A program made the position numbers and the translations under genes. The notes under the pieces were generated by a model. That model was given only the letters and a program-made list of their open reading frames with translations. It did no database searches and was not told the DNA's origin. From a virus: a DNA stretch of 23,216 bases. This document shows positions 1 to 23,216 of the stretch, one piece after another. Where the stretch lies: the IMG/VR virus record IMGVR_UViG_3300032116_001346, positions 1-23,216 of that record, one strand, 5' to 3'. The stretch's first letter is position 1. Each line of letters begins with the position of its first letter.

Positions 1-104
1 ATCTCGACGCGATCGATCTTGACGAGCGCGCTGCTCTGCGCGGATTCGATCGAGTGCAGCCTCTGCTGCGTCTGGCCACTGATATAGTCGCTGAGCTGGC
101 TCAT
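1..104 (-). CDS. Partial gene of unknown function, cut by left edge
   Basis: An open frame starts at ATG 104 and runs off the left edge after 34 codons. The start directly abuts the TGA of the outer-spanin gene (TGAATG), the same tight spacing seen through the rest of the operon, which supports it as a real gene. The visible N-terminus begins MSQLSDYISGQTQQ and continues as a polar, probably helical stretch rich in Gln, Ser and Asp, without a signal peptide or membrane segment. It is too short to assign a function. It shows only that the minus-strand transcription unit continues past the lysis genes. Confidence 0.6.
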   Translation of the reverse strand, partial: MSQLSDYISGQTQQRLHSIESAQSSALVKIDRVE

Positions 105-338
105 TCATGGTGCAAGCGCCACTTTCTCGAGCGCCCCCCCGGCCCCACAGACAGCCTCGAATGCGCGGTTGTGGCCGACGATCTGGCGCCGAGTCGGCTC
201 GGTGTCGAGCTTTGACATGCTGATCAACTTGAAGGATTTGCAGCCCGTATCAGTTACAGTCACGGCAGTGCCGGTCGAACACCCGGCCAGCAGGCAGCCG
301 GTCAGCAGTGCGGCGAGCCGCGTCGGCTTTCTTCTCAT
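105..338 (-). CDS. Outer-membrane spanin (o-spanin, Rz1-like) lipoprotein
   Basis: This 77-residue protein starts MRRKPTRLAALLTG and has a short basic N-terminus, a hydrophobic stretch and a lipobox ending LLAGC, which predicts lipidation at Cys20 (a second Cys lies at 15). It would be exported and anchored in the outer membrane. The mature part has two further Cys and a pattern (TGCKSFKLISMSKLDTEP, then HNRAFEAVCG) that I recall from small lipoproteins beside phage lysis genes. The start at 338 is chosen because the longer frame to 401 puts the lipobox too far in. The gene begins inside the upstream inner-spanin gene in another frame (89-base overlap), the classic Rz/Rz1 layout. Partnered with the inner spanin, it would fuse the inner and outer membranes in the last step of lysis. 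The role comes from architecture and position. Confidence 0.75.
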   Translation of the reverse strand: MRRKPTRLAALLTGCLLAGCSTGTAVTVTDTGCKSFKLISMSKLDTEPTRRQIVGHNRAFEAVCGAGGALEKVALAP

Positions 339-501
339 TTTCTTGGCCCTTCCTTTCGCCCTCGACGCGCACCTCCTGTCTTCCGGCCTCTTTGGCTGCA
401 CTCATACGCCGATGGTCCCAGGTCACGACCATGATGCCGAGCCCCGCCATGAGCGAGATGACGAGCCCACGGCCCGCGAATATGGACAGGAGCCAGGTCA
501 T
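250..501 (-). CDS. Inner-membrane spanin (i-spanin, Rz-like)
   Basis: This 83-residue protein starts MTWLLSIFAGRGLVISLMAG. One N-terminal transmembrane segment (about residues 3-27) is followed by a highly charged helical periplasmic part rich in Lys, Glu, Arg and Ala. This is the normal build of an inner spanin: a membrane anchor with a coiled-coil arm that meets the outer-spanin lipoprotein across the periplasm. The start at 501 is set by the ATGA overlap with the endolysin stop; the open frame continues upstream to 687, but only as a shadow of the endolysin. The last third overlaps the outer-spanin gene in a different frame. The protein is shorter than lambda Rz, but small inner spanins are common in phages of alphaproteobacteria. 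No homologue search was possible. Confidence 0.7.
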   Translation of the reverse strand: MTWLLSIFAGRGLVISLMAGLGIMVVTWDHRRMSAAKEAGRQEVRVEGERKGQENEKKADAARRTADRLPAGRVFDRHCRDCN

Positions 502-1193
502 CCGGGTTTGCCCTCCTGACTTGCCTTGACGCGCCGGCTCACGACATAGACCGCAGCCCCGATGCCGAGGCCGAGCGAGATGCTTTTGACGTTGCCGCCC
601 ATGCTGGCAAGCGCGGCCGAAACTGGGGAGAACTCCGCGAGCTTTGCGCTCCACTCTAGCAGGCTTGACAACGATTGCTCTGCCCAAGCGGCAGCCCCGG
701 CGAGCGCCCCGACGATGCTGCCCCAGACGGTGCCGGAGCGCGGCAAGGGGTTCGGTGCCGATGCTGGAAGGGCTTCCGGCGTGGATGGGGGAAGGGCTTC
801 GGCCATTGCAGGCTGAGCCCCGGCCGGGTACGCTGCCCTGTCAAGCTCAATGTGCGGCGAATCCCAGCCCCAATCAATGCCCCTGGTAATCTTGATGCCC
901 ATCTCGGCCGCCACGTCGCGGAACGCACCGGCTATGGGCCGCATGTGCGCGTCGTCGTAAGAGATCCGGCCGCCATCCAGCACAGCCACGAAGTCGATCG
1001 CGTGGCCGGTGATGTGCCGCGAGTTCATCGTCTTCGACTTTTTTGCCTTCACGAGCTGCGCCTGACGCTCTTTCGTGCGGCGGCCCTCGGTGATGAGAAA
1101 CGGCGGCGCGCGCTCGGCAACAGCCCTGGCAAGCCGGTCTAGCACCGGATGCACGCCATCCAGCGCGGCGAGCGAGCGAGGGGATAGGCTCAT
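498..1193 (-). CDS. M15-family peptidase endolysin with C-terminal membrane region
   Basis: This 231-residue lysis enzyme is predicted to cut peptide cross-links or stem peptides in peptidoglycan. The N-terminal ~125 residues are an M15 (VanY/D-Ala-D-Ala carboxypeptidase-like) zinc peptidase domain. The zinc-binding His60 and Asp67 lie in SRHITGHAIDF, and His114 lies in DSPHIEL. A Pro/Ala linker (about 120-152) follows, then hydrophobic segments at roughly 154-172 and 203-221, ending in a basic tail. Typical single-domain M15 phage endolysins stop near residue 130, so the C-terminal ~100 residues are an added membrane-associated module. The start overlaps the upstream stop as TAATG, and the end overlaps the inner spanin as ATGA. 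With two spanins next door this forms a lysis cassette, but no separate holin gene is visible. The enzyme class is well supported; the role of the membrane part is inferred. Confidence 0.88.
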   Translation of the reverse strand: MSLSPRSLAALDGVHPVLDRLARAVAERAPPFLITEGRRTKERQAQLVKAKKSKTMNSRHITGHAIDFVAVLDGGRISYDDAHMRPIAGAFRDVAAEMGIKITRGIDWGWDSPHIELDRAAYPAGAQPAMAEALPPSTPEALPASAPNPLPRSGTVWGSIVGALAGAAAWAEQSLSSLLEWSAKLAEFSPVSAALASMGGNVKSISLGLGIGAAVYVVSRRVKASQEGKPG

Positions 1194-1951
1194 TAGATAT
1201 CCCCCGGCCGGAGATTGCGGGTCCAGTCAGGACGGGGGGAACCATGATAGGCGCGAATGCCGGTGGGCTGATTGTCCGCTAGGGCGTTGATGCTCGCCCC
1301 GGCCAGAGCCCCAGGACGACCGCCGTTGGCAAAAAGCACGTCTGCATTGACGCCGACACTCTGCCCTGATGCTAGCCAATCATCGATTGTCCAGCCCGGC
1401 TTATCGCGATAGGCGTTAGCCGTTTCCACGTCTAACAACCGTGCTCCAGGCAAATCAAAATCAACCAGCAATTGTGATTTATCAACCGGAACGCTAACCA
1501 CCTCTTCTCCAAACTGTTGCGCAGTCTGACGAGAAGGAGAAAAGAACGCCGGCCCATCGACGCGACGCGCCCCTAGGATGGATCCCGCCGCCTCGGGGGA
1601 TGTTCCATGGTACAGCGTAACTTTTTCTGCGGAAGGCCGCCCACTCGCCCCCAGGCTGTTACGCGGCCGTGGCGCCGCGAGACCTCCCACCATCGCCGCT
1701 CCCGCAACGTTGAAAGCATCCTCCGCCGCTTGCGGGTCTCCTGAGACGTAGGGCCGGCTGAGCAGGTTGGACATGCTGCGGTACGGATGCCCGATCAGCA
1801 TGTCGGCTAGGCCGCCAACGGCATCGACCGCGAGGCCTGCTCCGGAAGTCGGGTCGTTAAGCCGGTTGGCCAGCGTCGGGGTGTAGTCCCGAATGGCGTC
1901 GGCCAACAGGTTGCGAAATTGCGGCTGCGGGCCTTGGGATAGCGTCGCCAT
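1193..1951 (-). CDS. ADP-ribosyltransferase-like domain protein, possible virion-delivered effector
   Basis: This 252-residue protein has at least two parts. Residues 1-105 are Ala/Gly/Leu-rich and contain a stretch (about 75-95, AFNVAGAAMVGGLAAPRP) of a type found in large phage or plasmid polyvalent proteins. Residues ~110-210 start VTLYHGTSPEAAGSIL and go on to FFSPSRQTAQQFGEEVVSVPV. This fits the first two elements of the ADP-ribosyltransferase fold: an NAD-contacting H-G-T (His115) and the aromatic/Ser strand followed by a helix. I could not place the third catalytic residue with confidence. The C-terminus contains a second short motif, IRAYHGSPRP (His235), and stops about 17 residues later. 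The DNA around 1430-1530 is AT-richer than its neighbours, suggesting acquisition. The gene abuts the His-rich gene (start 1951, stop at 1952) and overlaps the endolysin by TAATG. The fold assignment is by eye from motifs. Confidence 0.55.
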   Translation of the reverse strand: MATLSQGPQPQFRNLLADAIRDYTPTLANRLNDPTSGAGLAVDAVGGLADMLIGHPYRSMSNLLSRPYVSGDPQAAEDAFNVAGAAMVGGLAAPRPRNSLGASGRPSAEKVTLYHGTSPEAAGSILGARRVDGPAFFSPSRQTAQQFGEEVVSVPVDKSQLLVDFDLPGARLLDVETANAYRDKPGWTIDDWLASGQSVGVNADVLFANGGRPGALAGASINALADNQPTGIRAYHGSPRPDWTRNLRPGDI

Positions 1952-2275
1952 CTATGCCACCTGTCGAATGGTCTCGTGAGTGTGATGGGTCACGGCATGG
2001 TGCACGGAAAGCAAGTCCGCCTCGTGCTGCTTCACGTGCGCGATGGCTTGGGCGAGCTGCGCCGCCAGGTGCTGCACCGTCTGCTCTAGCGCCTGCACGT
2101 GGGCTCGCAATGCCGTGTCATCATAGGCAGGGGCGGCAAGGCCGCTGGCCAGCCCGTTGAGTGCTGCCCGGCCTTCCACCGTCGTGAAGTGGTGTCGCTT
2201 GTGAGGCGGGATCAGCTCGAGCAGTAGCGCCGCGTGATCGACGATCGTGCCGTCTGCCTTTGCCAGCTGGCTCAC
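1952..2275 (-). CDS. His-rich coiled-coil protein, unknown function
   Basis: This 107-residue protein probably starts at GTG 2275, which overlaps the upstream TGA as GTGA. The frame stays open to 2311, but the extra residues only shadow the end of the previous gene. The N-terminal half is ordinary (AKADGTIVDHAALLLELIPP). The C-terminal half (about 50-107) is a heptad-like helix (RAHVQALEQTVQHLAAQLAQAI) that ends in a cluster of histidines; I count 13 His overall, several in adjacent pairs. There is no signal peptide or membrane segment. Its place directly behind the tail-fibre genes suggests a tail or virion-assembly role, such as a small trimeric coiled-coil component or fibre chaperone. That is inference from position only; I do not recognise the family. 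Confidence 0.65.
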   Translation of the reverse strand: MSQLAKADGTIVDHAALLLELIPPHKRHHFTTVEGRAALNGLASGLAAPAYDDTALRAHVQALEQTVQHLAAQLAQAIAHVKQHEADLLSVHHAVTHHTHETIRQVA

Positions 2276-2814
2276 GCGAGCACCGCGCCGTTGTTGCTGA
2301 TGACCCACCACTCCGTGCCGATGAATTGCAGGGTTACAGCATCGCCCACGTCCGCGAAGGTCAGGGTGGTGCCGTTGGCGAGGTTCGTCGGGGTCAGCGT
2401 TCCGTCGCCACCATCCGCGATCATGACGATAATCTTGATTTGGCCGACTGCGCCGTCTGCCAGTGTCAAGGCGTTGGCGCCCGTGGTGGTGAGTGTCGTG
2501 GTCAACGTCGTGAGGTTGACGGCGCCAGCGCCTGATAGGCTTTGCACCGAGCCGACAAGCCCGCCGATGCCACTCATAACCCCGTTATCGTCAACGGTGA
2601 TGGCTGAGCCCTGAATTTTTTTGGTGTCCGTCCCGTCCGTGCGCAAGAGGCGGTTGTCAGCCGAGCCCAGACCGTCTGTGTATGTGCTGGCCGTCAACGC
2701 CGCTTCGATGTCGTCGAGCGTTGCATTCCAGTCAGCCTCGTCAATGTTCGTCCCCGGCACGGCAGGGTTGAACGAGTTAGACGGAGCTGTGTAGGTGCCT
2801 GTGGTGCGTGGCAT
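2272..2814 (-). CDS. Small tail-fibre-like protein
   Basis: This 180-residue protein starts MPRTTGTYTAPSNSFNPAVPG. The N-terminal ~40 residues match in style the N-terminus of the tailspike upstream: a T/S-G-T-Y opening, then PG/DGQ, then a short helix (WNATLDDIEAALT). In phages this module commonly precedes a fibre and links it to the tail. The middle is low-complexity Thr/Leu/Gly/Ala (TTLTTTLTTTGANALTLADG). The C-terminus (about 125-180) is beta-rich and ends with a pattern (TLTFADVGDAVTLQFIGTEW) often found at the tips of phage tail proteins. A clear ribosome site (GAGGGG) sits just upstream, 13 bases after the tailspike stop. It is probably a minor tail fibre or tip protein. The class is likely; the exact role is unknown. 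Confidence 0.7.
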   Translation of the reverse strand: MPRTTGTYTAPSNSFNPAVPGTNIDEADWNATLDDIEAALTASTYTDGLGSADNRLLRTDGTDTKKIQGSAITVDDNGVMSGIGGLVGSVQSLSGAGAVNLTTLTTTLTTTGANALTLADGAVGQIKIIVMIADGGDGTLTPTNLANGTTLTFADVGDAVTLQFIGTEWWVISNNGAVLA

Positions 2815-2826
2815 TCGTGAATCCCC

Positions 2827-4551
2827 TCAGATCTCGTACCACATGCCATTGACGGTCGAACGAATGAACGAATACGTAAACCCGCGCGCCGCCGTGATAT
2901 TGCTGCCAGACCTCGTTTTGATCGCGTCGGCAACCGTACCGGCTTGATGAACAAAAGTAGTGTTTGCGGACGTATCCTCGACAACCACGTTGATGCGTTG
3001 AAATGCGCTCCCGTCGAGAAACTGAGTGATCGACGTGGGCGATGCGTTGAACGTGTAATAGGTCGTGTAATATCCGCCCTGCGTTGCGTTTAACAGCAAC
3101 GATGGCGTCGTGCCGCTCAAAAGCGGCGCCGCGTCTCGCGTTTCCAACGCGTTTAATCGCTCGCTTATCCAACCATAAAGAGGCGATGCGTCTTTGCGCT
3201 GGCTGCCGCTGACTGTGACCCACGGAACATTGTCGCCCTGGCTGGAGCGATGGGCCCCTATGTCAATGTTGTAACATGTGCCAGTGATTGCGAACGCGGA
3301 AGTTCCCGTGGGCGGCGCGTTGGTTGACACTGCGCCGGCCCGAAACGCGACTTGCGTTGCATTGTTGATGACTGCAAAATTTGCGCAGCCGGTGGCGCCG
3401 GACAGATAGCCCGTGCATCCGTCAAAAATGATGTTGCGGGGGCCGTTGGCATTGCTCGACATGCCTTGACCGATTTCGATGAAGCAGGAACTTGGGTTTT
3501 CTAGGTCAACCCCGTAGAAATTCAGGCCGCTCGAATATTGCCCGTCGTATGCAGAATCGCCGTCGATCCGGATGAGTTTGCCGCAACTTTCGATCGCACC
3601 ACCAATGACTGCGCATCCCTGCAACCGTTTGATGTCGAGGCCCGCTACGCACCCAGCGTTTCCGCCGCCGATGTACATGCCGATCGTCGTCAGTACCGTG
3701 CTCGCGTCGATGCTGCCTTCGATCACGACTTGCGCAGCGCTGGCCGATCCGTTGGACCAGAACACGCAAGATACGATCGTCGGCATGATCACAGTGTCGA
3801 ATTTCACGGCTGTGCCGGCAAAGTCGTAGACGTTGACTCGCTCTAAATAGGGCTGCGTCGTGTTGGTGATCGTGATCCCCTGCACCGCGCCGGAGGCGCC
3901 GACGACGGTGAGGTGCCGAATGGCCGGCGCCTTGGCGTAGCTCGTTCCGGTGATAGTTATGCCGGTCGTAACAGCAGCGCCCACAAAGTAGATCTCCGAG
4001 GCAAACGCCATGCCCTGGCCCTCGAGATCGACGCCAGCACTATTCCCCGCTGGCACATTGAGGTTGCCGTTGCAGCGGATGCGTCCGCCTGGAAACACAA
4101 GTTTGGTCTGTGATGCCGCAGCAGCGTCGATGGCGGCTTGCACGTCGGCTGTGGCGTCGTAAGACGATGTGCGCGCGTAGATCGCCGCGTGTTGGGCAAC
4201 GGGAATGTAGTCGAGCACTGAAATGGCATTGGACCGCTGCGCCGTCGATACGAGGCCGCGATCAGAGATCGTGCCGACCTCGACCCCTCCAGCAACCACG
4301 CCGATCGTGTTCGCGGCCTTGCGGTAAAACCCGGTATCGGTGTCAGCGCCAAAGCCCATGCTCGGAGCGCTGACAGACCCAGTCGCCGCTTTGAGCTGGC
4401 CGGTCATCGCGGCTTGACCATCCCGCGGCAGGGAATTGGTCAGCTCGGAGCCGATGTCCGAGAAATTCGCGTTGACAACGGCCGCCGTGATGGTTTGGCC
4501 GTCTGAATAGGTGTTGGGAATGGCGTAAGTGCCGGATCCATTGCGTGCCAT
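2827..4551 (-). CDS. Tailspike / tail fibre with predicted beta-helix
   Basis: This 574-residue receptor-binding protein candidate has an N-terminal ~45-residue attachment module (GSGTYAIPNTYSDGQTITAA). A fibre-like linker follows (about 50-100), containing APSMGFGADTDTGFYRKA, a repeat type common in tail fibres. From about residue 110 the pattern SVLDYIP, ADVQAAIDAAAA and LVFPGGRIRC marks the start of a right-handed beta-helix of the pectate-lyase/tailspike type, and short beta repeats continue to about 460. The C-terminal ~90 residues are beta-rich and end FIRSTVNGMWYEI. Such spikes trimerise, bind surface polysaccharide and may cleave it, but I cannot identify catalytic residues. The gene is the first minus-strand gene after the plus-strand cassette. 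No strong ribosome site precedes ATG 4551. Its composition looks less GC-rich than that of the flanking genes, as expected for a swapped host-range gene. Confidence 0.85.
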   Translation of the reverse strand: MARNGSGTYAIPNTYSDGQTITAAVVNANFSDIGSELTNSLPRDGQAAMTGQLKAATGSVSAPSMGFGADTDTGFYRKAANTIGVVAGGVEVGTISDRGLVSTAQRSNAISVLDYIPVAQHAAIYARTSSYDATADVQAAIDAAAASQTKLVFPGGRIRCNGNLNVPAGNSAGVDLEGQGMAFASEIYFVGAAVTTGITITGTSYAKAPAIRHLTVVGASGAVQGITITNTTQPYLERVNVYDFAGTAVKFDTVIMPTIVSCVFWSNGSASAAQVVIEGSIDASTVLTTIGMYIGGGNAGCVAGLDIKRLQGCAVIGGAIESCGKLIRIDGDSAYDGQYSSGLNFYGVDLENPSSCFIEIGQGMSSNANGPRNIIFDGCTGYLSGATGCANFAVINNATQVAFRAGAVSTNAPPTGTSAFAITGTCYNIDIGAHRSSQGDNVPWVTVSGSQRKDASPLYGWISERLNALETRDAAPLLSGTTPSLLLNATQGGYYTTYYTFNASPTSITQFLDGSAFQRINVVVEDTSANTTFVHQAGTVADAIKTRSGSNITAARGFTYSFIRSTVNGMWYEI

Positions 4552-4607
4552 GTCGCGCCGTTAGGTGGGTACGCGCGCACAACGCTGTAACTGTTGCCTA
4601 GAGGTTA

Positions 4608-4636
4608 CTGATTTTCAACGCAAATCACGCTATAAA
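4608..4636 (+). promoter_or_regulatory. Possible sigma70-type promoter for the plus-strand cassette
   Basis: The -10 box TATAAA (4631-4636) is preceded by CTGATT (4608-4613) with a 17-base spacer. The -10 matches the consensus at five of six positions and the -35 at only three. It lies 74 bases before the start of the plus-strand membrane-protein gene, in the only gap where a promoter for that cassette could sit. The surrounding bases are locally AT-richer than the rest of the window. The prediction is by eye. Confidence 0.4.
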
Positions 4637-4642
4637 CGCAGC

Positions 4643-4674
4643 GGCCCGACAGGTGCGCTAACACCGGCCGGGCC
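4643..4674 (+). other. Imperfect hairpin in the leader of the plus-strand cassette
   Basis: GGCCCG (4643-4648) pairs with CGGGCC (4669-4674), and inside it GGTG (4652-4655) pairs with CACC (4662-4665). A 3x3 internal loop and a six-base apical loop separate the arms. No T-run follows, so it is not a normal terminator. It would form in the 5' untranslated RNA between the proposed promoter and the ribosome site at 4698-4702, and could be a regulatory or protective structure. Confidence 0.35.
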
Positions 4675-4709
4675 TTGACTTCACCCCTGATGAACCCAGG
4701 AGATCAGTC

Positions 4710-5624
4710 ATGACCCATACTATCACAGCTCCGCGCCTTGTCGCTAGAGCTGCGACCGTTGCCCTTTGGGCGGTCGGCTCCGCCTACTTACTTCGCCACG
4801 AATGGCAGGCCGCGTCCCCGGATTGGGTCGTGCTCTGCGCCACGCCCGTTGTCTGGGGCGTGATCCTCGCCCTGCCAGTGCTGTCCACCTATGCCCGCCA
4901 CGACCGCATGTGGCTCGCCACCGCGCTGCTGTGGCTGGCCGCCATCATGGGCAGCGTCTACACCCTTAACGCAACGATCGGCCGACAGGCCGGCGCCAGG
5001 GACGCGGCCGTGCAATCGGCCACGGTGATCGAGCAGCAGCGCGCCGCCCTTACGGTAGCACTCGACGCGGAGAAGCTGCGCCGGCAGGACGCTTTGAACC
5101 GCTGCGGCACCGGGCGGGCCTGTCACGAGAGCACCCGGAGCCTGCTCGGCATGCACCAGCTCGAAATAGAACGACTGGAGCGACAGATTGCCGGCCTCAC
5201 CGTTGCCACCCCGCAAGCCGGAGAGCAGCGGGTTGCCGCTCTCCTGTCGCTGGTGTTCGGCATCGAGCCGACCTTTGCCGCCGATCTGGTGGCGTTGCTT
5301 GCTCCTTGCCTGTTGGGCCTCACCCTGGAACTGTCCGCGTTTGCCGCTGCCATGTACGGCTGGCACCCTGGCGCCGCCCCTGTTCAGCCGGTTAGGCAAC
5401 ATTTGCCGGCCCTGGCAAAGCCGGAAATCGTGGCAAACGTCGCAGCAAACGTGGCACCCCACCCCGTGATTGATGCGCTCATCCGGGCTGGTCGCCCACT
5501 GACCAACGGGGAGTTGGCAAGAATGATGAATTGCTGCGACGGCGAGGCCACAAAACGGCGCCGGGAGGTGTCGCACGTCGTCAACACTCGTCGAGCCGGG
5601 CGGCACGTGCTAGTGTCTCTGTGA
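4710..5624 (+). CDS. Multi-pass membrane protein with cytoplasmic helix-turn-helix-like C-terminus
   Basis: This is a 304-residue protein of unrecognised family. Three hydrophobic segments (about 13-28, 39-58, 67-86) are followed by a charged coiled-coil-like stretch (about 95-163) carrying a close Cys pair (CGTGRAC, ~131-137). A hydrophobic region at 186-216 could cross the membrane once or twice. A Pro/Ala/Val linker leads to a C-terminal ~55-residue domain (from HPVIDALIRAG) with the pattern LTNGELARMM, like the recognition region of a winged helix. The ribosome site AGGAG sits seven bases before the ATG. It is on the opposite strand to nearly all other genes and is followed after 11 bases by a second plus-strand gene. 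The antisense frame over it is Cys/His/Gly-rich and looks like a shadow. A role in prophage regulation, superinfection exclusion or signalling is possible; none is shown. Confidence 0.8.
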   Translation: MTHTITAPRLVARAATVALWAVGSAYLLRHEWQAASPDWVVLCATPVVWGVILALPVLSTYARHDRMWLATALLWLAAIMGSVYTLNATIGRQAGARDAAVQSATVIEQQRAALTVALDAEKLRRQDALNRCGTGRACHESTRSLLGMHQLEIERLERQIAGLTVATPQAGEQRVAALLSLVFGIEPTFAADLVALLAPCLLGLTLELSAFAAAMYGWHPGAAPVQPVRQHLPALAKPEIVANVAANVAPHPVIDALIRAGRPLTNGELARMMNCCDGEATKRRREVSHVVNTRRAGRHVLVSL

Positions 5625-5635
5625 GGGAGGCAACC

Positions 5636-5833
5636 ATGAACAGCAATTCCGGTGGACTGAAGCTGGATTATACGACAGAGTTCGCGGCGTTCGATAGGCT
5701 TCCGAAGGAAGTGCGCCAAGCGCTTGCCAACGCTCCACAGAAGCTGTGCGCTTACTCGCTGAAGCAGAAGCGCTGGCCGAAGCAGAAGATGCTGGAAGCC
5801 ATTGCGGAGAAGTCTCAGAACACGTCACCCTGA
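5636..5833 (+). CDS. Small protein of unknown function
   Basis: This 65-residue protein starts at ATG 5636 behind a strong ribosome site (GAGGGAGG). The frame remains open upstream to 5531, but that part only shadows the end of the membrane-protein gene. The sequence has the pattern FAAFDRLPKEVRQALANAP, which I recall from small phage and alphaproteobacterial proteins of the DUF6525 kind, with a basic second half (LKQKRWPKQKMLEAIAEK). It is probably helical and soluble. It is likely co-transcribed with the preceding membrane protein. Its 3' end overlaps the end of the convergent ejection-protein gene by 19 bases. The family hint is from memory of motif style and is tentative. Confidence 0.75.
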   Translation: MNSNSGGLKLDYTTEFAAFDRLPKEVRQALANAPQKLCAYSLKQKRWPKQKMLEAIAEKSQNTSP

Positions 5834-6843
5834 CCCAAGGGGCGCGCGTTGCGACGCTGCAGCGCGTCCCGGAGGGCCTTTTCGTCCGCATTCATCCCGC
5901 CGAACAGCCCGCTGTTTCTCGGCTGCAGCACGCTGGCGTTGAAAGTCGCATTGGGCGGGACGGCGTAGCCGCGCTTGGCCATGATCCCCGCAAGATCATC
6001 AAAGGTCATGCCGTAGTTCTGTAGCAGCATCTTCACGCCGGGGTCGTTGGCCAGAAGACGCTCGTAAGCTCCGGCAGGAACCTCCGGCGCAGTGTTGGCC
6101 GCTGCCCCCATTCGCTCCCTGACCACACCAAGCAACCTGTCGGCTGTGCCGATTACAGCATCCTCTGGGCTCATTTGCGCGCCCCGGTTGATCAGGTCTT
6201 GCTGTTGCATGGAGCGCCGGCCTCGTTCGATCGCTTCGCTTTCGCGGGCCATGCGGGCGGGAGCCCATGGGTCGGCTTCCGGCGCGATGCGTCCACCATT
6301 CCCGGCCGGGATCATGCCGGGGTTCTCCCGTTTGATTGCAGCGTAGGACTGGTAAGTCAACGCCGGGGGCGCGTTCTGCGCGGTGCTCATGATTTCTGAA
6401 TGGCGCGCCGCTGCGGCCTGCTGTTGCGTATTTGCCAATTCACGCGCGAGGGCTTCCCGTGTCCGTGTCGCCGCAAGCTCCGGCATGTCGCCACTGTAGC
6501 GCAGCCATCTCCCAACGCCGGAACCAGCGCGCCCTAGCGCCGACAGCGGCATGCCGGTCGGTCCCATGGCGTCGCCCGTAGCGCTCAGTGCGGCCCCCAA
6601 TCTTGCCACCGCGTCAAATGCCGCGCCGCTAGGGTTGTAGTAAGCGTGCCGCAGGTACATCATAACCGGGTCGCCGGAAACGTCGATAGGACGTTCCGGC
6701 GTCGGGTACGGGTTTGCGCCCACATCTGCAGCACCGCTGGCCGGCACTCGGGGCTTGCCGTCCGGGTCAAACGCTCGCGTCGGCATCCCGCTGAGCTGCG
6801 CTGCCAGCGCCTGCGCTTCGGAGGGGCTGAGTGGTTGAGCCAT
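5815..6843 (-). CDS. Probable ejection/internal virion protein (third of three)
   Basis: This 342-residue protein starts MAQPLSPSEAQALAAQLSGM. The first ~60 residues are Pro-rich (PYPTPERPIDVSGDP). A helical Ala/Gly-rich part follows (about 70-165), then a charged stretch with many Arg/Glu/Gln (about 190-225), and a C-terminal helical part ending LRDALQRRNARPLGQGDVF. It has no signal peptide and no enzyme motif. Its start directly follows the stop of the 721-residue protein (TAAATG), so the two are translationally coupled. Three consecutive long helical proteins after the tail genes are typical of the internal proteins that short-tailed phages eject ahead of their DNA to bridge the cell envelope. 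The assignment rests on position, size and composition. Confidence 0.6.
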   Translation of the reverse strand: MAQPLSPSEAQALAAQLSGMPTRAFDPDGKPRVPASGAADVGANPYPTPERPIDVSGDPVMMYLRHAYYNPSGAAFDAVARLGAALSATGDAMGPTGMPLSALGRAGSGVGRWLRYSGDMPELAATRTREALARELANTQQQAAAARHSEIMSTAQNAPPALTYQSYAAIKRENPGMIPAGNGGRIAPEADPWAPARMARESEAIERGRRSMQQQDLINRGAQMSPEDAVIGTADRLLGVVRERMGAAANTAPEVPAGAYERLLANDPGVKMLLQNYGMTFDDLAGIMAKRGYAVPPNATFNASVLQPRNSGLFGGMNADEKALRDALQRRNARPLGQGDVF

Positions 6844-9009
6844 TTATCGGCCCTCCCTGCGGTCGGACTGCATCAGATAGCGCGCAAGCGCTGCCGTGGC
6901 ACTGCCGGCGGCACCGGCAGCAGGGAGCGTAGCGCGCACGGGCTCCTCGGCCCGCGTCAAAACACCTGCTTGCCCGCGCATGCGGGCAAGATGCTGAGCA
7001 ATCTGGGCGGTGTCGCTCATCGGTGTTGTCAAGATAGCCGCCATCGGCCGGTCTCGGCGCTCCGTGACCAACTGCGTCGCCCGCTGTAGCAACCAATTCC
7101 GCACACCTCCGGCGTTGGCGTTCCCTACCGCCGCCATCAAGCCGGTTTCGGTCTGCATTTGCTGCTGCGCCACCCCCCGGCGATGCGTGGCGCTGTTGGC
7201 CATCATGCGTTGCGACGCTTCCGCAACCCGCTGGTCTCGCACCGCGCGCGTAAAGGTGATGGCTGCCTCCGGCCCGAACAAGGCGCGGATCATGTTGCGG
7301 TTATGGTCATTTGCAAACAGCTTGGAGACGGCGTGCGTATCCCCGAGATCGTCGAGCTTGTCGTAAAGCTTCTGAAGGAAGTGAATGCGCACGATGTTTT
7401 GAGCTTCAGGCGCGAGCCGATCGAACTCGCGGATCTGCTCGCGAAATCGCGGCCCGGCTTTGGTCGCGAAGGCGTCGCCCAGCTCGGCGCCCATGCGCAA
7501 GAAATTCATGTCCGCCCACCGCTGATTGGCGCGCGCCCATTGGGGGCTCATGTTCGTCATGAGCCGCGTGATATGCTCGTAGACCGGCTGCACCGCGTTG
7601 ACGAGATCATCGCGTCCCTGTTGCCGGTAGCTCTGAATTTGTCCCCTGACCACGCCGCGCGCGTCCTGCAGTTGTTGCAACGTCCCCATCGCTAGCCGGC
7701 CGTTGGGCGTGTTGATGTAGAATTGATCCGTGGCGTTCCGGATGGCTCGCTCGATATCACCTGACCGTGATGCTGCGCGGTTCTCGTGCCACTGCAACAT
7801 ACGGGGAAGCCAATTTAACATCAGACTATTGTTGACTGGGCTGTTGTAAGCCTGCCGATATTCCTGGCTCCCGAGTTGCCGCGCGTTGTCGATGATGGCT
7901 TCAGCGTCCGCGATGTTGGCCGGCCGGGATGCACCGCCGCCGGGGGGCTGAGCCTGTGGACCGATGCCTTCCAACGTCTCGCGCATCGATGGCGCCAGAC
8001 GCTCCTGGCGCGTCGAAATGGCGTTGCGCACGTCCTGGGCGGACTGCGCCGCACCGTTGTTGGCGAGATAGTCAAGCTTGGCTTGGGTCGTGCTGTCCTG
8101 CACCCGCCCCAGCTCGTCGAGATCGACGTTGCGCGCCTGGCGCAAGCCCGCATTCGGCCCGCGCAATGCCGCGTCAGAGCCGGCTACGGCCGGATACTCC
8201 GCCAGCATCAAATCACTGTCGGCGTGCACGTTGCGCAACTGCCGAACTTGATTGACGGCCGTGGTTCTAGCCGCGCCTGTTTCTGTCATGATGCGGGCAA
8301 TAGTGGCCTGTTCCGCGGCCTGCACATCGCCGCGGGCTCGCACCATCTCATCTCCGAGAATGTCGAGCGTGCGTCGGTTGGTGGCTACGTTCGCACGCGA
8401 CGGCCCGGCTGCAATCTGATCGGCCAGCGCGTCGGCGCCACCCGGCAGATCGTCGCCAATGCGGCCGTAAGCGCCGGCTTCTCCCATGTTGGCCCTGGCG
8501 CGGTTGATCTGCCGCAGCCCTTCACCGGCCATCCCGATGCCGCCACCCAGCACTGCGCCCAATGTGCCGGAAACAGCCGCCTGCTGTGCCCGGTTGCCAA
8601 ATCCGTCCTCACCTTGGCCGAACCCGGTCACGGCTCCCGTTCCACCACCAATTGCCACCGCTTGGCCAATGCGCCCCGCCGCCGATGCTGCCGGGCGCAA
8701 CGCACCTCTCACGAGGCCGACTCCGGGAACGGCCATGCCGCCCGCGACTTCGCCCACAGTGGACAGGATCTTGTTGCGGTCGCGGAACGTGCGCAGGTTC
8801 TGGCGTTCGCTTTTCAGAGCTTCGTCGTAGGTCTCCGACCCCACCAGCGACCGGACGCCGGCCGCGATTTCGTCACCGAACCCGAACCCCAACCCCTGCC
8901 CAATGACGGTTTGAAACAGACCGTAGGCCGGCGAATAGTTGGAGTCATCGAGCACATAGCGCGCTTGCGGCGCTTGCTCCGGTGCGGCGTCCAGAACATA
9001 CCGGCTCAT
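6844..9009 (-). CDS. Large ejection/internal virion protein
   Basis: At 721 residues this is the longest protein of the window. An N-terminal region with a short repeat (SRYVLDAAP and ARYVLDDSN, residues ~2-22) leads to GLGFGFGDEIAAGVRSL and YDEALKSERQNLRTFR, a combination I associate with large ejected proteins of phages infecting alphaproteobacteria. Gly/Ala-rich hydrophobic stretches with glycine-zipper spacing follow (about 85-165, GGGTGAVTGFGQG and VLGGGIGMAGEG), suited to membrane insertion. The remaining ~550 residues are long polar helices. No peptidase or lysozyme active site was found. Its ATG overlaps the previous stop as ATGA. It would be packaged with the DNA and form part of the trans-envelope conduit; this is inference from architecture. 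Confidence 0.7.
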   Translation of the reverse strand: MSRYVLDAAPEQAPQARYVLDDSNYSPAYGLFQTVIGQGLGFGFGDEIAAGVRSLVGSETYDEALKSERQNLRTFRDRNKILSTVGEVAGGMAVPGVGLVRGALRPAASAAGRIGQAVAIGGGTGAVTGFGQGEDGFGNRAQQAAVSGTLGAVLGGGIGMAGEGLRQINRARANMGEAGAYGRIGDDLPGGADALADQIAAGPSRANVATNRRTLDILGDEMVRARGDVQAAEQATIARIMTETGAARTTAVNQVRQLRNVHADSDLMLAEYPAVAGSDAALRGPNAGLRQARNVDLDELGRVQDSTTQAKLDYLANNGAAQSAQDVRNAISTRQERLAPSMRETLEGIGPQAQPPGGGASRPANIADAEAIIDNARQLGSQEYRQAYNSPVNNSLMLNWLPRMLQWHENRAASRSGDIERAIRNATDQFYINTPNGRLAMGTLQQLQDARGVVRGQIQSYRQQGRDDLVNAVQPVYEHITRLMTNMSPQWARANQRWADMNFLRMGAELGDAFATKAGPRFREQIREFDRLAPEAQNIVRIHFLQKLYDKLDDLGDTHAVSKLFANDHNRNMIRALFGPEAAITFTRAVRDQRVAEASQRMMANSATHRRGVAQQQMQTETGLMAAVGNANAGGVRNWLLQRATQLVTERRDRPMAAILTTPMSDTAQIAQHLARMRGQAGVLTRAEEPVRATLPAAGAAGSATAALARYLMQSDRREGR

Positions 9010-10775
9010 CGGTTGCCCCTCGTGGCGCGCGTCAGCAGTTCATCCAGCCGGCGCAGCTGATCGCCTGACAGGCTGCCACGCTGGCCATCGTACTTCCTAA
9101 CTACGTCAATCGGTGGCAATGACGCGGCGTCCCGCTCGAATTGAGCGCGGAGCTGATCAGATGCAGCATTGCTTTCGCGCTCCATCGTTGCGCGGCGTTC
9201 CTGCGCACGAGCTGCGGGAGAGCCTGGCGCGCTTGTCGGCCCGGTCTGCTCAACGAACGGGACTAGCTGGCTGCCCCGTTTGATGAGCCGCTGGCCGGTC
9301 GCCTGATCGAAGACGCGCGCGCCCTCCGGAATCTGATCGGGCGTCGCGAACTGCGTTTGCGCCGGTTGTCCTGCCGGCTGCCCGGATGCAGCCCCAGCCG
9401 GCTGGCGCTGACCGCCCTGTGCCTGCGTAGCAGCCGCTTCGGGGAACAACGGGTTCTGCGCGCTCCATTGGGCTAGACGGTCAAAAAACCGATCGTCGAT
9501 GCGCCCCTTGTTCATGCGCGCATATTCGTTGGCAAATCGAGCTACTTCGATACTGCGCTGCGCAACTCGCTTCATGTAGCCGATGAGCATGCGATTGCCC
9601 TCCGGCGTCATGGAAAGATTGGGGTTCATGCCAACAAGGAATTGCCGATCTGAATCGCTCATTGCGCCGGGCATGCCCGCTCCGCCAGACGGGTCGCGCG
9701 CGGCAAGCGCCAGCTGGCTTGCCAGCGCCTGGAACATTTCGGCTTGTGATAGCCCGTTAGTTTGGATGCCGGCGGCACCGAGCGCCCGACGAAGCGCAAG
9801 CTCGTATTGGGTGCCGGGCCCCAGCGGCGTCCCTGACGCGATGAGATTCTCCATTACGTCGAGCATGGCCAGTTGCGATTGAGCCTTGCGCGCGCCGTCG
9901 CGAAGCTCGCCCATTTCTTTGGCAAGCCCCTTGCCAAGCTCGCTATCGTAGGCTTTCTGCCCTTCGCGGTCGGGGGACTCTGTGAGGATTTTCGTGGCCG
10001 TGTCTTTGTTGCCGAGAATTAGTGCAATGGCGGCCCGGTTGCGTCGTTCTTCTTCGATCTCTCCGATCGGGCTCATTCCACGAGCCGGCGGCGTGGGCTG
10101 CGCAGAAGGAACCGCAGCGGGCGCAGGCTCAGGCGTCGGCCCAGGCAACGGCGCGCGCGCGTCGGGAATGTCGAAGCTGCCTTGATCGGCCGGCATCGCC
10201 GAAGGGGCAGTAATGGCCGGAGCGGGCATGGCACCCGGCGGCTGGCCAGGCCCGGCTTGTGGCGCGATAAGCCCCAACGTGCGCGCCTGCGACAGCAGCT
10301 GATCACGCTCCATCTGGCTTTTGGCCTGCATCAGCTTGAGTTGCAGTTGGTGGGCTTCCTGCGCCATGCTGCGCTGCTGCCCGAACTGTGCGTTCTGCAT
10401 GCGCTCGGCGTGGCCAAACTGCCGGTTCTGCTGCTCGCGCTGGAATCCTTGGTTCATGGACGTGTTTAGGTAGCTGTCGGCCAATTGCTGGCCGCGCTGC
10501 ATGCCGAACGGGGTGGCCATCAGCGCTCCGGCCATCTGGTTCATGGGCATGCCGGATTCCATGCCCCGCTTGTAGATGTCGGCCACGGCTTGATTGCCGG
10601 CGCGCTCGCCTTCGTTGGCCTGCTGTGTCCAAGCGGCGCCGCTGCCGGCCTGGAGCACGCGCGCGAGCGCCTGCGTCCAGTGCTGTGCGGGCCCGGTGTC
10701 CGTGCCGGCGTTGAGCAGCCGCGTCCCGAGCTGCCGGCCGAACCCGACCGACTCCGGCGTCCAGTCTGTCGTCAT
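9006..10775 (-). CDS. Gln-rich helical virion protein, probable ejection protein
   Basis: This 589-residue protein starts MTTDWTPESVGFGRQ. I chose ATG 10775 because a GA-rich ribosome site (GGGGGGAAGTGAGG) precedes it; the frame stays open to 10874, but those 33 residues look non-coding. After a short helical head (RVLQAGSGAAWTQQANEGER), residues ~85-175 form a long Gln/Met/Ala coiled coil. A Pro/Ala-rich low-complexity linker (about 180-245) follows, then a helical domain (about 250-450), a second Gln/Pro-rich linker and a C-terminal charged tail (LRRLDELLTRATRGNR). The gene is first in the block after the hairpin at 10907-10934 and is followed by the 721-residue protein with an ATGA overlap. 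It is probably an internal virion protein delivered into the host. Confidence 0.7.
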   Translation of the reverse strand: MTTDWTPESVGFGRQLGTRLLNAGTDTGPAQHWTQALARVLQAGSGAAWTQQANEGERAGNQAVADIYKRGMESGMPMNQMAGALMATPFGMQRGQQLADSYLNTSMNQGFQREQQNRQFGHAERMQNAQFGQQRSMAQEAHQLQLKLMQAKSQMERDQLLSQARTLGLIAPQAGPGQPPGAMPAPAITAPSAMPADQGSFDIPDARAPLPGPTPEPAPAAVPSAQPTPPARGMSPIGEIEEERRNRAAIALILGNKDTATKILTESPDREGQKAYDSELGKGLAKEMGELRDGARKAQSQLAMLDVMENLIASGTPLGPGTQYELALRRALGAAGIQTNGLSQAEMFQALASQLALAARDPSGGAGMPGAMSDSDRQFLVGMNPNLSMTPEGNRMLIGYMKRVAQRSIEVARFANEYARMNKGRIDDRFFDRLAQWSAQNPLFPEAAATQAQGGQRQPAGAASGQPAGQPAQTQFATPDQIPEGARVFDQATGQRLIKRGSQLVPFVEQTGPTSAPGSPAARAQERRATMERESNAASDQLRAQFERDAASLPPIDVVRKYDGQRGSLSGDQLRRLDELLTRATRGNR

Positions 10776-10837
10776 GGCCTCACTTCCCCCCGAGCAGCCG
10801 CGTAAAAGACGACGCCAAATTCCTGTGGCGTGGTCAT
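10772..10837 (-). CDS. Possible 21-codon leader ORF ahead of the ejection block
   Basis: ATG 10837 opens a 21-codon frame (MTTPQEFGVVF at its start) whose TGA overlaps the ATG of the 589-residue protein as ATGA, the same junction type as most genes here. The two proteins both begin MTT. The ribosome site upstream is weak (AAGG about 20 bases away). It may be a small coupled gene or a leader peptide, or it may be chance. The short length gives no domain information. Confidence 0.35.
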   Translation of the reverse strand: MTTPQEFGVVFYAAARGEVRP

Positions 10838-10906
10838 GTTGACTTAATGCAGGTACCTTGATACTAGACAGCACCCGACGTGATTGACGGGCTCGACTTG
10901 AGATCG

Positions 10907-10934
10907 AAACGGCGCTGGTGGCTCAGCGCCGTTT
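10907..10934 (-). terminator. Perfect inverted repeat, probable intrinsic terminator (bidirectional)
   Basis: AAACGGCGCT (10907-10916) pairs perfectly with AGCGCCGTTT (10925-10934) across an eight-base loop. It begins 11 bases after the stop of the minus-strand gene that ends at 10945. The stem is GC-rich, with A residues on one side and T residues on the other, the shape of an intrinsic terminator. The T-run is better on the plus strand (TTTTGCTTT) than on the minus strand (GTTTCGATC), so minus-strand termination may be partial. It separates the tail genes from the ejection block. I see no convincing promoter between it and the next gene, so read-through may supply the downstream genes. Confidence 0.6.
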
Positions 10935-10944
10935 TGCTTTAGAC

Positions 10945-11823
10945 CTACTGCATTGGCCCATATTGGCCAGGCTGCAAGGGGATCCCCTGAGCCTGCATAG
11001 CTTGAATCATGCCGGGGCTAAGCCCTCCACCTCCACCACCGCCGCCACCCAACAGCCGCGTGAACAGGCTTCCACCGACGCTTGCCCCGCCACCCACCGG
11101 AGCGCTTAGAATCGACCCACCGATGCCGGAGAGCCCGCCCAACATCGCGTTGCGCTGTTGCATCTGCTGATTGTAGACGTTGGCCTGCTGCTGATAAGCC
11201 ATGTTGTTGAGCTGGCCATAGTCCACCGTGCCGACGTTCACCCCTGGCGCGTTGACCATTTGCGGCGACGTGGTGCCCATGCCGAATTGAACGCCTGGGG
11301 ATAGCTCGCGCATTTGCTGGCCGCGCTCGTTGATGGCCTGCCCCCACGCGCCCGTCGCGAAGTTGTTGCGGGCCTCGTTCTGCTGCAGGGCTACGTCGCT
11401 CATCTGCGTGCGGAACGCCTCGCTTGACGGGTCAAACCCCTGATTGCGCAGCCGGCTTTCCGCTGCGGCTCGCATGCGCTCGTTCCGCGGGTCCATGGTC
11501 TGATCGTACATGCCAAGCGCGCGATCGATGCCGCTGGAGCCGCCGGCCTGGTCGAAATACCTATCCGCCAGCCCACCGAGCCCACCGGCCATGCGCTGGC
11601 CTGTGGCTCCCAGTTGCTGGTTGACCTGAAACACCGGATTGCCATTGGCATCTGTGCCGGACTGCGACCAGTTGACCGTGTTGCCGAACGCATCGGTCTG
11701 GTTCGGGCGATTGTAGGCCGCCTGCTGCTGCGCCGATCGCGTGTTCTCGGCGGCCTGCTGCTGACCGACCGCGGCGACGTTGATCGGTGCCGGCGCTTTA
11801 GGCGTGCGAAAGAGTGAGCCCAT
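10945..11823 (-). CDS. Tail-associated Gln/Gly-rich protein, possible tail needle or ejection protein
   Basis: This 292-residue protein starts MGSLFRTPKAPAPINVAAVG behind a good ribosome site (AGAGGA) that lies inside the end of the acetyltransferase gene (26-base overlap). Residues ~20-45 are Gln/Ala-rich, followed by TDAFGNTVNWSQSGTDANGN, a short beta-like segment, and an Asp/Arg/Gln-rich helical centre (about 100-170). The C-terminal third has a long Gln stretch (AYQQQANVYNQQMQQRNAML), Gly/Ser-rich hydrophobic segments and an uninterrupted run of nine Gly before the final SPGMIQAMQAQGIPLQPGQY. Proteins of this composition occur next to nozzle genes in short-tailed phages and are usually unnamed. 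The product is likely a virion component; its position in the particle is not known. Confidence 0.65.
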   Translation of the reverse strand: MGSLFRTPKAPAPINVAAVGQQQAAENTRSAQQQAAYNRPNQTDAFGNTVNWSQSGTDANGNPVFQVNQQLGATGQRMAGGLGGLADRYFDQAGGSSGIDRALGMYDQTMDPRNERMRAAAESRLRNQGFDPSSEAFRTQMSDVALQQNEARNNFATGAWGQAINERGQQMRELSPGVQFGMGTTSPQMVNAPGVNVGTVDYGQLNNMAYQQQANVYNQQMQQRNAMLGGLSGIGGSILSAPVGGGASVGGSLFTRLLGGGGGGGGGLSPGMIQAMQAQGIPLQPGQYGPMQ

Positions 11824-12229
11824 CGTGATTCCTCTTGAGCCACCGGCAGGCTTCCGGCGTCATGTAGAACCGAAGCGCGTCCTGGCCGCGCCCGTAGTAG
11901 TCGCGCTCGACGCCCTCGAAACGGAACGCAAACTTCGGCGCCGCCTTCTTGACGGCGCGGTTAGACTTCGCCGTGCGGATCTCGAGCCGATAGACGCCCG
12001 ACCCGAACACGCGCCCGAACATTTCGCGCCACGTGTCGTTGCTGGTCCGGCCGTACAGGTGAAGCTCGGCCGTCGTGTCGTTTTTGGCGGTCAGCACGAA
12101 CGCCCCGACCAGCACGCCGTCTCGATTGATGACGCCCATGGAGACGGACGGCTGCTGCTGCACGTGAACGCCGTAGCGAAGCGCGACCCATGCGTTCACG
12201 GTCGCGTCATGGCCAAGCACGAGATGCAT
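11798..12229 (-). CDS. GNAT-like acetyltransferase encoded between tail genes
   Basis: This 143-residue protein starts at ATG 12229, which overlaps the nozzle stop as TGATG; the frame is open to 12427 only as a shadow of the nozzle gene. The central strands (VSMGVINRDGVLVGAFVLTA) and the C-terminal pattern YRLEIRTAKSNRAVKKAAPK then FAFRFEGVERDYYG fit the second half of GNAT acetyltransferases. In that fold an Asn/Ser followed by a helix precedes a 'lGF..EG' strand. The usual acetyl-CoA loop (R/Q-x-x-G-x-G/A) is not obvious, so the CoA site may be divergent. Family members move an acetyl group from acetyl-CoA to an amine on a protein or small molecule. Related genes sit among structural genes of other phages; the substrate is unknown. 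Confidence 0.65.
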   Translation of the reverse strand: MHLVLGHDATVNAWVALRYGVHVQQQPSVSMGVINRDGVLVGAFVLTAKNDTTAELHLYGRTSNDTWREMFGRVFGSGVYRLEIRTAKSNRAVKKAAPKFAFRFEGVERDYYGRGQDALRFYMTPEACRWLKRNHDGLTLSHA

Positions 12230-13866: not shown

Positions 13867-14570
13867 CAGGTAAGCGACCAATTCCCATCAGCTATGGACG
13901 GATCGGACAGCGTAGTGCCGGGCTGATTGCCGAGGTCGAGAATGCGCATGCCGCCATCGTTGGCCTTGCGCTCGTTCACGGCTTCCTCGTAGGAGCGGAA
14001 CGCCTCGGAATAGTCGAGACCGCGAGCGCGCAGGAAGCGCCACACGACCCCGAGCGACACCAGCTCCTCGTCAAGGAACGTGATGTCATCGTCGTTGGCC
14101 CATTTGAGCGCCGTGGCCGACGTGTCGGCGGCGAGCCCGCACCAGTACCTCGACACGTACTCAAACGCGATTGTCTCAGCCGCCGTAGGCGTCGGCGTGA
14201 GCCGCAGATAGTTGCCGCGGATATAGACCGCCGTCCATGTGCCCACAGTCAAATTGGCCTGCATCTGCTGCCAGCGCTGCGGCGTGATCGGACCCACGAC
14301 CAGCCGGTCCTGGCTCCGATTGTACATCGTGCCCTCGAGCAACCTGTCGAAGTCGGTCGGAAGGGCGTAGGCGACCGTTCCGTTGACGGTCGCAAACGTG
14401 TGCTCGTTGGTGATGCGCTGCCAGGCGTGCCTGCGGGCCAGCTCGACGCCCTCCTGAATGGAAAGCGACAGCATCATGCGGACATTAGGCTCGCTTGACG
14501 AGATGACCGCAGTCGGGCTCGGAATGCCGATGCGGTCGGCTGCCGCCTGGATGATGGTCAGCAGACTCAT
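13866..14570 (-). CDS. Head-tail adaptor protein (SU10/P22 gp4-like)
   Basis: This 234-residue protein starts MSLLTIIQAAADRIGIPSPT, followed by SSEPNVRMMLSLSIQEGVEL and RRHAWQRITNEHTF. This opening of helices, then a strand region (TVAYALPTDFDRLLEGTMY), then EFVSRYW-like and DDITFLDEELVSLGVVWRFL is the pattern of the adaptor that sits under the portal ring in SU10- and P22-type phages. It joins the portal to the nozzle and takes part in head completion after packaging. Its start overlaps the upstream stop as ATGA and its stop overlaps the nozzle start as TGATG, so stoichiometry may be set by coupling. The assignment rests on recalled family pattern and gene order. Confidence 0.78.
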   Translation of the reverse strand: MSLLTIIQAAADRIGIPSPTAVISSSEPNVRMMLSLSIQEGVELARRHAWQRITNEHTFATVNGTVAYALPTDFDRLLEGTMYNRSQDRLVVGPITPQRWQQMQANLTVGTWTAVYIRGNYLRLTPTPTAAETIAFEYVSRYWCGLAADTSATALKWANDDDITFLDEELVSLGVVWRFLRARGLDYSEAFRSYEEAVNERKANDGGMRILDLGNQPGTTLSDPSIADGNWSLT

Positions 14571-15010
14571 GTGCTCACGGGCTCGTCAGCGGCATCCTTA
14601 GGCGGCCGGCCGCGGCGCGGGGCGGCAACAGCCTGCAGCGCTTCCAACTCGCGCATGCGAATAAGGTTCTTGGCCGCCTGCCAGGACGTGAGCCCGCCCA
14701 TGCCGAGCGATTTAGCCGCCGCTTCGTCGAGCGCGGCCAGCTCTTCAGCCGTGCGAACGCCCTTGAGCCGGTAGCCGAGCGCGACGTTGAGGTCCACGCC
14801 AGGCACATCCGTCAGGGGCGAGCCCTCGATGGGAATCTCCTGATTGCCAGCGCTGTAGGCGGCCCAATCCTTGGCGAACCGCTCCGTGTCGGCCGGCGTC
14901 ACCTTGCGAACCACGGTGTTCGTGTCACCGATGATGCTGATTTCAATGTAGTCGCGGCCAGACTCGCCGCGAAAGAATTTGGCACGCACTTTGCCGAGCA
15001 CTTCGCTCAT
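14567..15010 (-). CDS. Structural-module protein with AT-hook-like C-terminus
   Basis: This 147-residue protein starts MSEVLGKVRAKFFRGESGRD behind a clear ribosome site (GAGGTG). The N-terminal half is beta-like and charged (YIEISIIGDTNTVVRKVTPA). Residues ~60-95 give a Pro-Leu-Thr segment and a helix (LKGVRTAEELAALDEAAAKS), and the C-terminal helix ends in RRGRPPKDAADE, an AT-hook-like Arg-Gly-Arg-Pro core that could contact DNA minor grooves. It sits between the capsid genes and the adaptor, where head-completion or minor capsid proteins are usual. DNA contact inside the capsid or with the portal is possible but unproven. No family name can be given from sequence alone. Confidence 0.7.
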   Translation of the reverse strand: MSEVLGKVRAKFFRGESGRDYIEISIIGDTNTVVRKVTPADTERFAKDWAAYSAGNQEIPIEGSPLTDVPGVDLNVALGYRLKGVRTAEELAALDEAAAKSLGMGGLTSWQAAKNLIRMRELEALQAVAAPRRGRPPKDAADEPVST

Positions 15011-15026
15011 GTGTCACCTCGATTGT

Positions 15027-15053: not shown

Positions 15054-15062
15054 GAGTTGTCG

Positions 15063-15536: not shown

Positions 15537-15566
15537 GGAAGCGGTCTCCTGTTGCGTGGGGCTGGA

Positions 15567-16529: not shown

Positions 16530-16542
16530 AGCTCAGTGGTTC

Positions 16543-22958: not shown

Positions 22959-23216
22959 CTACGCAGCCCGCGCTGGGATGATTGCCTTCCCCACTGTAAG
23001 GACAGACGGCAGCGGCTCCGGCTTTGTTTCACGTGCAACGCTGTCATTCGCCGGACGGAGCGGGACCACCTCGGCAGTGTGCTGCGGGGCGGTGTCGTGC
23101 TCCATGCCGTAGACCAACAGGCCGAAATGCACCCCGAACATGCCGAGCAGCATCATGGTGACGGCAGAGAACACGGCAATCATGAGCTGAGCTTCAGCCT
23201 CTGTGCTCCCGAGCTT
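22959..23216 (-). CDS. Small single-pass membrane protein, open to the right edge
   Basis: The frame runs from the right edge of the window to a stop at 22959. A start at ATG 23183 gives 74 residues with an immediate membrane segment (MIAVFSAVTMMLLGMFGVHF) and then a Pro/Glu/Arg-rich soluble tail. Upstream of that ATG no stop occurs in the last 33 bases and the frame continues as KLGSTEAEAQ, so the real start may lie beyond the window. No ribosome site is evident before 23183. It precedes the terminase pair with a 27-base gap. It could be a small phage membrane protein of unknown role; nothing identifies it further. Confidence 0.55.
   Translation of the reverse strand, partial: KLGSTEAEAQLMIAVFSAVTMMLLGMFGVHFGLLVYGMEHDTAPQHTAEVVPLRPANDSVARETKPEPLPSVLTVGKAIIPARAA

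Follow-up and report, generated by a model that had tools for sequence, protein, structure and literature searches.

A plus-strand cassette in a minus-strand late region

The window, by which we mean the whole stretch of DNA analysed (a virus record of 23,216 bases), carries almost all of its likely genes on the minus strand. Its portal protein matches phrog_12082 (E 1.8e-175) and falls slightly under the Pfam cut-off for P22_portal, its terminase is a Terminase_3, and portal relatives (27-35% identical) occur in 10 records of the phage collection, including phages of Myxococcus (3), Bradyrhizobium, Rhizobium, Stenotrophomonas, Ruegeria, and Microcystis. A preliminary description of this DNA had placed two ORFs opposite the structural operon, and both are present on the plus strand, at 4710-5624 (304 aa) and 5636-5833 (65 aa), flanked by minus-strand genes at 2827-4551 and 5815-6843. 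The features of the cassette and its surroundings are as follows:

2827..4551, minus strand: fibre-like gene bordering the cassette; N-terminus homologous to Mx8 p64 (E=5e-16)
4577..4585, plus strand: box A, GCACAACGC, an upstream element kept in relatives
4617..4628, plus strand: box B, AACGCAAATCAC, followed by TATAAA (4631-4636), a possible -10
4643..4674, plus strand: leader hairpin from folding, with a 6-bp outer and a 4-bp inner stem
4686..4702, plus strand: small CCTG...CAGG hairpin from folding, overlapping the Shine-Dalgarno AGGAG (4698-4702)
4710..5624, plus strand: 304-aa membrane protein with predicted TM1 (~10-28), TM2 (40-58), TM3 (68-86), and TM4 (193-211)
5442..5621, plus strand: C-terminal HTH-like domain (residues 245-304), with no Pfam match of its own
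5636..5833, plus strand: 65-aa FDRLP protein with its own ribosome site, in the window only
5815-6843, minus strand: gene adjoining the cassette on its other side, before the ejection-like gene
6844..9009, minus strand: ejection-like gene (phrog_5880), its putative ejection role assigned from gene order
22959..23216, minus strand: C-terminal part of another coiled-coil membrane protein, without HTH, adjoining the terminase and cut by the contig end

The 304-aa ORF is a genuine gene and evolves under purifying selection. Comparison with its copy in the related record L003 gives 93 differences, distributed 19/6/68 over codon positions 1/2/3, and a dN/dS of about 0.10 (dN 0.035, dS 0.361), a codon-position pattern characteristic of purifying selection on 4710-5624. 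An antisense ORF at 4788-5606 was rejected as a true gene, because the same pattern and the codon scores (-0.003 vs 0.137) favour the plus frame. The 65-aa ORF is probably coding; its frame scores 0.35 bits per codon, compared to -0.55 +/- 0.22 for 1000 shuffles, none of which (0/1000) scores as high.

The two genes do not form a conserved pair, as the 65-aa gene is found in no relative of the 304-aa gene. It is missing from both G001 and G002 (0/2), the FDRLP motif is absent from the remaining relatives, and the earlier proposal that the two act as a functional unit is not supported. DNA similarity between the window and L003 runs out at window position 5609, within ~15 bases of where the large gene ends, from which we conclude that the 65-aa gene was gained or lost together with the downstream segment. 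The FDRLP motif resembles DUF6525 and pieces of Chlamydia-phage scaffold proteins, all under cut-off; the 65-aa protein was not accepted as a DUF6525 member because its score (18.7 bits) lies below the gathering cut-off (23.5 bits), and a literature search found no paper on DUF6525.

The membrane coiled-coil protein beside the terminase is of a separate kind. Terminase-side proteins with a membrane-coiled-coil(Cys)-membrane layout and no HTH are encoded in the window and G003; a longer sibling lies at L050:33-908, L065:15032-15958 and L063:9482-10495 are of the same type (no family match above cut-off for either), and look-alikes occur in L016, L017, L018, L020, and L052. We rejected it as a paralogue of the 304-aa protein, the profile relation having a probability of 0.7% (with the L065 relative).

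The 304-aa protein and its relatives

Relatives of the 304-aa protein were found in five other IMG/VR records, L003 and L004 (95% identical), L005 (50%), and L056 and L057 (42%), and all six copies, including that of the window, are found in the late region, on the strand opposite to its genes. On sequence comparison, the protein is a member of a small unannotated family, for which Pfam offers no entry above cut-off and PHROGs no significant match; the window copy has no significant match in NCBIfam or PADLOC, and an Rfam search returned nothing. No significant match came from plasmids or phage isolates, and pattern-based scans of bacterial genomes found no relative among the 102 and 156 stretches covered. 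Matches to DUF3051 and EPS_sugtrans (E 0.05 and 0.11) and to phage HTN2 (E 0.8, covering two ORFs) were dismissed as chance, and two candidates from a DNA pattern scan, L076 and L080, proved to be different genes. In the relative G004, a long low-complexity ORF of Ala/Ser repeats (SAAWSAAES...) is present at L062:3571-4578.

Hydropathy predicts integral membrane proteins for the window, L003, L005, and L056 copies, and in the window copy the peaks fall at residues 10-28 (weak, 1.58), 40-58, 68-86, and 193-211. A helical stretch of ~100 residues between TM3 and TM4 (~88-190) is a predicted periplasmic coiled coil carrying Cys132 and Cys138, which are identical in 4/4 aligned copies; the membrane layout and both cysteines are preserved among copies of 42-50% overall identity. 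The charges (2 K/R in cytoplasmic loop 2, and 12 K/R vs 6 D/E in the tail) fit a topology with both termini inside. If the weak TM1 does not form a membrane helix, however, the tail would be outside, which counts against the regulator reading developed below.

The predicted cytoplasmic tail comprises ~90 residues. AlphaFold places helices in it at 252-260, 266-272, and 277-293 when the whole protein is modelled (mean pLDDT 60), and the C-terminus modelled alone yields three matching helices (mean pLDDT 65), both models being of low confidence and built on alignments of three or four sequences. The window tail matches no Pfam family, even with the threshold relaxed to E 10, sequence searches of solved structures gave nothing significant, and Foldseek with the tail model found no PDB match better than E 1.5. 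The best BFVD match was an unnamed 400-aa protein (E 2.8e-3), with several uncharacterised proteins of uncultured phages, all at TM-scores of <=0.32. In a second look with VIA-align, many of the top rows were HTH or winged-helix DNA-binding proteins, the first being ScpB (Z 4.5, the best), the EutK C-terminal domain, Lrp/AsnC regulators, and XerD-FtsK gamma (Z 4.0); scores of Z 4.5-4.0 are weak and non-specific, and a common helix arrangement alone may explain them. The domain had been described as HTH-like, and the modelling bears on this both ways: no clearly different fold emerged, and the window tail is without a family match and modelled at low confidence.

The tails of relatives are more informative. 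L005 and L056 are 66% identical over residues 1-221 (145/221) and only 31% beyond (23/74), and the L056 tail scores with HTH_Crp_2 (E=1.5e-5) and MarR_2 (E=2.6e-4), both under gathering scores. Because of this difference in identity and the HTH-like score of the L056 tail, the tail in this lineage would have been either exchanged or subject to fast divergence.

Searching 48 phage records with alignment A3 gave one weak match, in G006, to a protein (L060:3289-4347) that, like one in L083, has a membrane-coil-membrane-winged-helix layout and is encoded in a phage early region. A third, in L084, is known solely from its 46% identity to the L060 protein. In an hhalign comparison, the four-copy profile of the 304-aa family aligns with the L060/L083 family over positions 77-302 (21% identical), HTH on HTH, with a probability of 88.9% and an E value of 2.4e-6 for this single comparison, although the coil may contribute part of the score. 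Unlike the 304-aa gene in its late region, the early-region genes adjoin XRE/CI-like repressors and replication genes in all three cases (3/3); the replication neighbours are DUF1376 in L060 (Pfam) and L083 (by eye) and DnaB in L084 (by eye). We count the repressor neighbours in favour of a regulatory role. On whether genes of this kind also occur apart from structural modules the outcome is mixed: every close relative is within such a module, and only the distant relatives lie elsewhere, in early regions. Beside the membrane-HTH gene and the CI-like repressor of L060, a phage-encoded GcrA cell-cycle regulator is present (L060:4541-5221; PF07750, E 9e-34), and a GcrA-like gene was also seen by eye in L084; these hint at alphaproteobacterial hosts for the two phages.

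The Crp/MarR-type score of the L056 tail and the profile alignment with the early-region proteins strengthen the HTH reading, and judged by these similarities the 304-aa protein probably ends in a DNA-binding domain. One alternative is that this is a three-helix tail that does not bind DNA, and that the protein is an ordinary membrane protein with no assigned role. The weak fold and family scores of the window copy favour this alternative, but we consider it improbable given that the L056 tail, at the same place, scores as a Crp/MarR winged helix, and that the profile alignment pairs the tails of the 304-aa family with those of the early-region proteins. The layout proposed previously, with several membrane segments, a coiled coil bearing paired cysteines, and an HTH-like domain at the C-terminus, is thus supported by hydropathy, by C132/C138, by the predicted helices, and by the tails of relatives.

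Upstream element and leader

Four leaders (window, L003, L005, and L056), lying between divergent gene starts, have these elements in common: box A (GCACAACKC), box B (AAATCRC), a stem-loop, and a hairpin of CCTG..CAGG type that covers or adjoins the Shine-Dalgarno sequence. The two boxes in this order were detected a single time per phage searched, always before the 304-aa gene, in a scan that covered the window, G001 (1-20000 of 24197), G003 (complete, in two pieces), and G004 (1-36900 of 37966); as the boxes were derived from these same copies, the finding is their absence elsewhere, for which no chance expectation was computed. The conserved upstream element alone points to autoregulation as a possible role, and, with a single copy in each phage searched, a target beyond the gene's own promoter is unsupported.

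Whether the cassette has its own promoter, as had been suggested, is only partly borne out. The conserved two-box element and the TATAAA are present, but a sigma-70 consensus scan of window positions 4000-6600 returned no promoters, further leader scans also found no consensus promoter, and the TATAAA, although present in L056, is lost in L003. There is no terminator at the end of the cassette; the sole terminator-like site in 4000-6600 is at 6318, past it. The proposed leader hairpin (4643-4674) is present, as are a strong ribosome site, AGGAG, ahead of the 304-aa gene and a separate ribosome site for the 65-aa gene.

Folding z scores for the short leader hairpin are -2.1 (window), -2.1 (L005), and -4.5 (L056), and the L056 stem differs in sequence while retaining pairing in a shifted register. 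The hairpin at the Shine-Dalgarno position appears in the minimum-energy folds of 4/4 short leaders, and the whole leaders of 72-76 bases give z scores of -2.5, -2.1, -0.75 (L005, not significant), and -2.7. We note that in L056 (6778-6811) the leader hairpin scores as a minus-strand intrinsic terminator, and that it may also serve the opposite transcript.

The single upstream element also bears on whether the protein could be a membrane anchor for phage DNA in replication, partition, or packaging, similar to phi29 p16.7, its tail binding DNA without regulating transcription. That the distant relatives adjoin early-region replication genes is consistent with such an anchor, as are the FtsK gamma and ScpB rows in the VIA comparison. 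Nonetheless, the close relatives are at a late-gene junction outside the replication module, and there is just one conserved copy of the element per phage, such that we regard anchoring as quite unlikely.

The ejection/fibre junction and possible functions

In the window, G001, G002, and G003, the 304-aa gene lies on the opposite strand between ejection-like and fibre genes, and in G004 and G005 an amidase-like gene (by eye) is the outer neighbour instead. Other phages carry opposite-strand genes at this position. P22 places sieA(-), mnt(-), arc, and ant in the interval from gene 16 to gene 9; in Mx8, the lipoproteins p58 and p59, on the opposite strand, and the anti-repressor p63 (Ant) precede p64; and Rhizobium phage RHph_I3_18, whose ejection-like protein is homologous to that of the window (E 9e-13; both phrog_5880), has an opposite-strand lipoprotein, EVC14_017, at the same junction. 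Opposite-strand junction genes are thus present in 2/5 isolate-type records (Mx8 and RHph_I3_18), two others having been viewed only cursorily, and the Bradyrhizobium phage record has none at its ejection/fibre junction. A survey of opposite-strand ORFs past the phrog_5107 gene in 21 records undercounts them, as its longest-ORF rule hid the known L009 copy. A 57-aa exported Cys-rich ORF is found on the opposite strand of the same junction at L055:12222-12392, and small opposite-strand exported or lipoprotein genes lie at ejection/fibre junctions at L087:16557-16847 and L089:33297-34593; lipoprotein and export assignments at the junction were made by eye. The junction has the appearance of an accessory-gene hotspot directed at the envelope, and the suggested accessory nature of the cassette is supported as regards its position, a site that holds opposite-strand exported and lysogeny genes in other phages. 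Because neither P22 gp16 (BLASTP E 0.25) nor Mx8 p57 (E 0.13) is detectably related to the window's ejection-like protein, equivalence with P22 and Mx8 on the ejection side is positional only.

The reading that we tentatively prefer, at somewhat less than even confidence, is that the 304-aa protein is an accessory (moron-like), membrane-anchored one-component DNA-binding regulator in a junction of the P22 sieA/immI type. It would reside in the inner membrane with both termini in the cytoplasm and, in the periplasm, a coiled coil prone to disulfide formation, and would be made in the prophage or early. The coil may respond to envelope events such as the arrival of an ejection conduit, and the cytoplasmic tail, a putative winged-helix-type DNA-binding domain, would act on the gene's own conserved upstream element and perhaps on immunity genes. 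This reading draws on the purifying selection, the conserved layout, Cys pair, and upstream element, the junction with its opposite-strand accessory genes, and the winged-helix-scoring tail of L056. Counting against it are the window tail's missing Pfam match, poor PDB match, and low AlphaFold confidence, and the absence of a consensus promoter and of a terminator at the cassette end; in addition, no integrase was seen by eye among the window ORFs, which leaves a prophage state conjectural.

The 304-aa gene resembles P22 sieA/immI in being an opposite-strand gene for an inner membrane protein (here predicted) between the last ejection gene and the tailspike or fibre gene, and the P22 region also holds lysogeny regulators. 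To our knowledge, SieA has no HTH domain. The 304-aa protein shows no sequence relation to SieA (hhalign with alignment A5: probability 0.15%, E 0.39), and membership in the SieA family therefore fails on sequence, although junction position and strand match. As described for P22, SieA acts on ejection proteins and prevents DNA from being injected at the inner membrane, with escape mutations in genes 16 and 20 (PMC10883804), and deletion of immI is reported to lower lysogeny (PMC11016777). A SieA-like role in superinfection exclusion, in which the protein obstructs the incoming DNA conduit with its membrane part and periplasmic coil and the tail is only a scaffold or autoregulator, is a real though rather unlikely alternative. 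It would be in keeping with a junction and strand shared with sieA, with the adjoining ejection-protein genes, ejection proteins being what SieA acts on in P22, and with the lipoproteins at the same junction in other phages; it is weakened by the lack of sequence relation and by the conserved DNA-binding-like tail, which exclusion alone does not need.

A bolder form of the regulator reading, which we regard as a long shot, is a membrane alarm. In the prophage, the Cys-paired coil in the periplasm would encounter the ejection conduit of an incoming phage or envelope damage, upon which the winged helix would alter how immunity genes and its own gene are transcribed. Exclusion and regulation, which are separate in P22 (sieA and mnt), would then be joined in one protein. 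Phage regulators are normally soluble, and we found no report in the literature of a phage-encoded membrane transcription regulator of such a layout. If true, a phage protein linking envelope to DNA would give a prophage a direct route to sense superinfection or envelope damage. The position also predicts that, in P22- and Mx8-type phages of other hosts, exclusion and lysogeny functions can be sought among the genes at the ejection/fibre junction.

Among other known systems, phi29 p16.7 organises replication, and its layout and host group differ from those of the 304-aa protein. ToxR and CadC have an N-terminal HTH (winged helix) and a single membrane helix, whereas the 304-aa protein has four predicted membrane helices and a C-terminal HTH-like part and is phage-encoded; on this layout it falls outside the ToxR/CadC subfamily. 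What it would have in common with ToxR and CadC is the combination in one protein of a periplasmic part, membrane helix, and cytoplasmic HTH, as described in PMC10269533, the main text of which contains no word beginning with 'phage', and the periplasmic disulfide of CadC is described as functionally important (PMC3096576). Like phi29 p16.7, a phage membrane protein that binds DNA (PMC4974454), it is a phage membrane protein for which DNA binding is predicted. By analogy, it is possible that the 304-aa protein works like SieA or like ToxR/CadC.
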